Shown here: positions 38,711 through 38,751 of the stretch, piece by piece
How positions within the stretch are numbered: position 1 is the stretch's first letter
Layout of the letters: each line of letters starts with the position of its first letter
The notes under the pieces: model-generated
Database searches by the model: none
What the model was told of the DNA's origin: nothing
What the model saw: the letters and a program-made list of their open reading frames with translations, nothing else
Source: Acidilobus sp. 7A
GTDB lineage: Archaea > Thermoproteota > Thermoprotei_A > Sulfolobales > Acidilobaceae
Assembly (NCBI RefSeq): GCF_003431325.1
Contig: NZ_CP010515.1
Coordinates: 1,302,001-1,366,000 of the forward strand
Length of the DNA: 64,000 bases
Direction of reading: 5' to 3'
Made by a program: the position numbers and the translations under genes

Positions 38711-38751
38711 ATAACCGAAAGCCTCGCCCTTTAGGGCGGGGAGGAGGTCAG
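38711..38751 (+). repeat. Solo IS605-type right-end hairpin, copy 3
   Basis: Plus strand ATAACCGAAAGCC, stem CCTCGCCC-TTTA-GGGCGGGG, then GAGGAGGTCAG. Its GGTCA supplies the TGA stop codon of the leftward GfcR-like gene, so the insertion defines that protein's C-terminus. Cleanest copy of the five. Confidence 0.78.

Follow-up and report, generated by a model that had tools for sequence, protein, structure and literature searches.

The stretch of DNA analysed here (the window; 64 kb, G000:C1:1302001-1366000, part of a genome consisting of a single 1.54-Mb contig) contains five dispersed hairpins of about 40 bp, hereafter solos, all belonging to family A and all recovered by a sequence pattern search at the places given in the first-pass annotation. 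Their extents are stated with the left target site included. On the minus strand, the copy at 4805-4848 consists of a left site CTAC (a decayed TTAC), the guide AAAG, the stem-loop and a right site TCAG, and the one at 24633-24676 of TTAC, AAAG, the stem-loop and CCAG (a decayed TCAG). On the plus strand, the copy at 38708-38751 has the left site TCAT (again a decayed TTAC), AAAG, the stem-loop and TCAG, and that at 41190-41233, located 72 bp away from the end of a tRNA gene (41305-41409), has TTAC, AAAG, the stem-loop and TCAG. A degenerate copy at 55955-55993 (+), upstream of a proteasome alpha gene, reads TTAC, guide AAGA, stem-loop and a short tail to TCAG from which five bases are missing. 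The window solos lie between genes, as had been claimed; the 55955 copy was scored as coding by our script, its overlap being only with an ORF of 94 aa that lies between the genes for proteasome alpha and cation efflux.

The five copies scored E = 1.6e-9 to 9.6e-15 against a covariance model trained on 16 copies, these five included, so that the model matches its own members by construction. The pattern of the hairpin core found no match in 100 dinucleotide shuffles of the window. A profile search for TnpB (PF07282) gave no match within the 64-kb window, and one for Y1 TnpA (PF01797) gave none anywhere in the genome. The earlier statement that no tnpA or tnpB lies in this stretch thus stands as far as genes are concerned, with the correction that mini-elements without tnpB, which belong to another TnpB family, are present in the window (29361-29576(+) and about 4974-5114(+), see below).

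Distribution of the solos

About 40 similar solo copies are present in the genome, and the covariance model matches 98 places at E <= 1, among them left as well as right ends of tnpB elements, solos, and right ends of 345-bp elements devoid of tnpB. The solos are divided into family A (27 copies in the boundary profile), family B (about a dozen) and a third type (two copies). TnpB is matched 15 times in the same genome. Where the element occurs in named records, these are mostly from Desulfurococcales-type archaea, and a search of the Desulfurococcales literature found no description of these elements. Two solos are also found on a 17.7-kb IMG/VR contig classed as viral (L204, at 1789(+) and 5465(-)), where one of the five ORFs searched has a Pfam match (an AAA ATPase).

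TTAC, the putative target of insertion, precedes most copies. The loci of all five window solos are syntenic in the congener G003, some of them also in G001 and G002, and no solo was found at these syntenic places in G003, nor in G001 or G002 where synteny holds. This could reflect loss or the lack of an insertion, the intergenic DNA of the congeners being too divergent for exact empty-site junctions to be aligned. Among the congeners compared, G001 included, no locus was found with a full element in one genome and a solo in its relative.

Genome-wide, 34 of the 37 solos checked fall between genes, compared with about 16% of random positions at the same loci, and the solo stem-loop is a stable hairpin. 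Both features would suit intergenic hairpins that function in regulation or termination and have no relation to transposition, a reading that we consider exceedingly improbable. The solos are unbiased in orientation with respect to their neighbours (20/34 same strand on either side) and their hairpin has no T run, and with both of these hallmarks absent an identity as intrinsic terminators or regulatory elements was rejected. The solo-free syntenic places of the congeners also speak against it, as does the explicit match of the solos to transposon ends described in the next section.

Anatomy of the solos and of their full-length parents

Genes for TnpB that carry the hairpin at their 3' end, which it had been proposed to look for, do occur in the same genome. 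A full family A element reads TTAC/AACTG-AAAG-CCTCGCCTTTTAAGGCGGGG-ATG(tnpB)...GAAC-CCTCGCCCTTTAGGGCGGGG-AGGAGGTCAG/flank, with slashes at the element boundaries. Its left end, TTACAACTGAAAG followed by a hairpin, adjoins the start of tnpB, and its right end is made of GAAC, a hairpin and AGGAGGTCAG, followed by the guide. The solo layout is TTAC/AACYG-AAAG-CCTCGCC..GGCGGGG-AGGAGGTCAG/flank. The solos are therefore the left half of a left end and the right half of a right end, assembled around one hairpin. They had been described as IS605-type right ends; the IS605/TnpB origin is upheld, but they are not plain right ends, being left/right chimeras with a single hairpin.

The boundaries of these chimeras are sharp: in the boundary profile (27 family A copies), the conserved stretch begins at TTAC and ends at TCAG, and outside it the mean information is only 0.07 and 0.10 bits per base on the two sides. 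The breakpoint between the two halves varies among solos, lying left of the guide, within the stem or right of the stem, as expected for separate recombination events. One guide is retained, usually AAAG. Some solos have the loop CCCCTCA in common, a loop not seen in the surviving full family A elements, and a lineage of solos could perhaps have spread in that form. A derivative in G001 (L266, C9:71164-71358) has its left and right ends only about 165 bp apart and keeps the start region that follows the left hairpin, an intermediate between a full element and a solo.

The guide/site code

In two relatives, G046 and G052, a Y1 tnpA directly follows the same left end, the order in G052 being left end, tnpA, tnpB, right end. 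Since the same ends flank a Y1 tnpA in these relatives, the family belongs to IS200/IS605, which confirms the IS605/TnpB origin of the hairpins. The guides of IS608, AAAG and GAAT, sit at the base of its hairpins and pair with the cleavage sites TTAC and TCAA, respectively (PMC5934647). The left site and guide of the family studied here are identical to those of IS608, and its right end obeys the same pairing rule, with TCAG/GAAC in place of the TCAA/GAAT of IS608 through compensatory changes (PMC5934647). Unlike IS608, the solos consist of one hairpin without a transposase, in a genome that is itself devoid of Y1 TnpA.

Full elements from several genomes extend this correspondence, with left guide/site pairs AAAG/TTAC, CAAG/TGAC and CAAA/TGAT, and right guides GAAC or GAGC occurring with TCAG and GAAA with TCAT. 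The four-base guide beside the hairpin thus covaries with the cleavage site as it does in IS608. Under a pairing rule that uses guide bases 1, 2 and 4 and is our own reading of the published IS608 tetranucleotides, the predicted left site is found 4-13 bases upstream in 94 of 153 copies with a left-type guide, against a mean of 71 and a maximum of 86 over 2000 guide permutations, a test that ignores the relatedness of the copies.

Applied to the solos, the code leaves a single guide for two different sites: AAAG addresses TTAC, not TCAG. Eight solos of G042 carry the guide AAAC, which is predicted to code for TTAG, and all eight sit behind TTAC. Because they follow TTAC in spite of coding for TTAG, these solos were most simply inserted as full elements by another guide, AAAG, and became chimeric afterwards, AAAC being a hybrid guide made of left-end and right-end bases. 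AAAC also occurs as the guide of one right end in G052, so that it may instead be a right-end variant, and this right end fits a crossover to the left of the guide. G042 has about 32 model matches, with no intact tnpB and no Y1 TnpA.

Scars or mobile elements?

We think it probable that the solos are recombination scars of IS200/IS605 TnpB elements, the equivalent of solo LTRs. A full element would insert immediately 3' of TTAC, a site specified by the guide AAAG at its left hairpin according to the IS608 mechanism. Recombination or replication slippage would then take place between the near-identical left and right hairpins, which form direct repeats of about 20 bp located about 1.4 kb apart, and the tnpB gene and guide-RNA scaffold between these repeats would be deleted. 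What remains would be one chimeric hairpin between the old TTAC target site and the old TCAG cleavage site. The deletion step itself is something we infer, as is the present inertness of the solos towards both TnpA and TnpB; the five 40-base hairpins of the window are very probably dead scars. Among the three options offered in the first-pass annotation (relics, mini-elements mobilised in trans, orphan guide RNAs), that of relics is the best supported, by the chimeric anatomy and by the mismatch between guide and site.

The second option supposes that the solos are themselves mobile, as minimal elements of one hairpin that a Y1 TnpA would move in trans, in the manner of REP sequences and RAYT. 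Copy number is high relative to that of full elements, loop variants are shared among copies, the syntenic places of the congeners lack solos, and the Haloquadratum ISHwa23 case offers a parallel (PMC3119063). Two different cleavage sites call for two guides, however, and a solo encodes a single one; the AAAC solos of G042 sit behind a site that their guide does not encode, and Y1 TnpA is absent from the present genome, G042 and G059. Movement in trans is thus disfavoured; it keeps some weight as a rival, and we regard it as unlikely.

An IS607-type serine recombinase is not a likely mover either, the tnpB gene next to it having no such hairpin beside it. The genome has two genes for serine recombinases of 207-208 aa (L326, G000:C1:694484-694876, and L325), one of them preceding a tnpB (G000:693361-693528) by about 1 kb, with which it probably forms an IS607-type element.

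Guide-RNA scaffolds and tnpB-less mini-elements

In the tnpB elements the guide-RNA scaffold precedes the right hairpin; the solos lack it. This bears on the third option, namely that the solos are transcribed orphan guide RNAs whose 3' flanks direct a TnpB from another locus. The 15 TnpB matches of the genome would provide such a partner, and the right ends of tnpB elements match the Rfam family HgcC (RF00062), one of them at 53.5 bits, above the gathering score of 50. In the solos, on the other hand, nothing upstream of the hairpin is held in common with the tnpB right ends, the sequence preceding TTAC is random, and the G042 copies persist without an intact tnpB. For want of a scaffold the orphan-guide reading was rejected for the 40-bp copies, and we hold it to be very improbable.

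The HgcC match above the gathering score lies directly behind a tnpB (G000:C1:245323-245455, L285). HgcC is matched over its full length by the tnpB right ends and by the 345-bp mini-elements, including the final hairpin and GAGGAGGUCAG, although mostly under the gathering score, and what the solos have in common with HgcC and with sot0042 (RF02656) is only the 3' hairpin part. HgcC may be a family of TnpB guide RNAs; a literature search for HgcC together with TnpB found nothing. Within the window, Rfam gave only chance matches over 4700-5240.

A reRNA/omega RNA scaffold, lacking in the solos, is present in two classes of longer elements devoid of tnpB. The first comprises eight 345-bp elements of family B (L133, L134, L068, L069, L018, L028, L140 and L150), 82-91% identical, in which both ends are present and the scaffold is kept: a left end with TGAC/CAAG, the full scaffold, and a right end with TCAG. 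The second is family D, represented in the window by a tnpB-less 216-bp mini-element with a complete reRNA-like scaffold at 29361-29576 (+) and by a divergent copy at about 4974-5114 (+), next to the solo at 4805. It has 25 matches in the genome (copies at loci L305-L324), eight of them full-length and 92-97% identical, that at 29361-29576 included. A single tnpB copy (G000:1498961-1500419) shares the family D scaffold and left end and constitutes its one tnpB-bearing parent.

The 3' flank differs at each mini-element copy. Judging from sequence features, these longer tnpB-less mini-elements would be better candidates for orphan guides than the solos. One possibility, which we put forward tentatively and think less probable than not, is that the two families (345 bp, about 8 copies; 216 bp, up to 24 copies) form a trans-acting library of putative orphan TnpB guides served by one or a few TnpBs, every copy having a scaffold and using its individual 3' flank as the guide, that at 29361-29576 in the window among them; the 40-bp solos would then mark collapsed full elements.

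Comparison with known systems

The closest parallel is found in Haloquadratum walsbyi, whose terminal-only PATEs (core deletions of HqIRS46 and ISHwa23) are likewise fused IS605/TnpB ends of about 50 bp with one palindrome. They were formed by deletion between near-terminal palindromes (PMC3119063), which, as in the parents of the solos, are direct repeats (PMC3119063). Between Haloquadratum strains an element has collapsed from 1500 bp to 52 bp via a 19-bp repeat, and six strain-specific insertions there are all terminal-only, which was read as possible mobility (PMC3119063). The solos have the same construction, with ends fused around one palindrome and a palindrome that is repeated in the parent. 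They differ in archaeal lineage and in sequence, and in that the guide/site code reveals which end gave each half, whereas the conversion of a full element to a solo, seen between Haloquadratum strains, was not seen here among the congeners compared.

REP sequences, which are GTAG-tagged palindromes, and their RAYTs offer another likeness, being short single hairpins dispersed between genes and related to Y1 transposases. In contrast, the ends of a solo stem from two transposon ends rather than from a GTAG-tagged palindrome, and the search of this genome found no Y1/RAYT gene.

Implications

The window solos extend a known kind, the terminal-only PATE, to a further archaeal lineage, and the guide/site code adds to the evidence. 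On this reading a dispersed archaeal repeat is explained, and TnpB elements would decay by collapse onto one hairpin. As the guide beside the hairpin must match the insertion site, the code also provides a sequence test of a question that is open for Haloquadratum, namely whether terminal-only copies are mobile or arise in situ. The results further connect TnpB right ends of this order with an archaeal RNA family, HgcC, and the tnpB-less mini-elements with full scaffolds are a possible supply of guides in trans.
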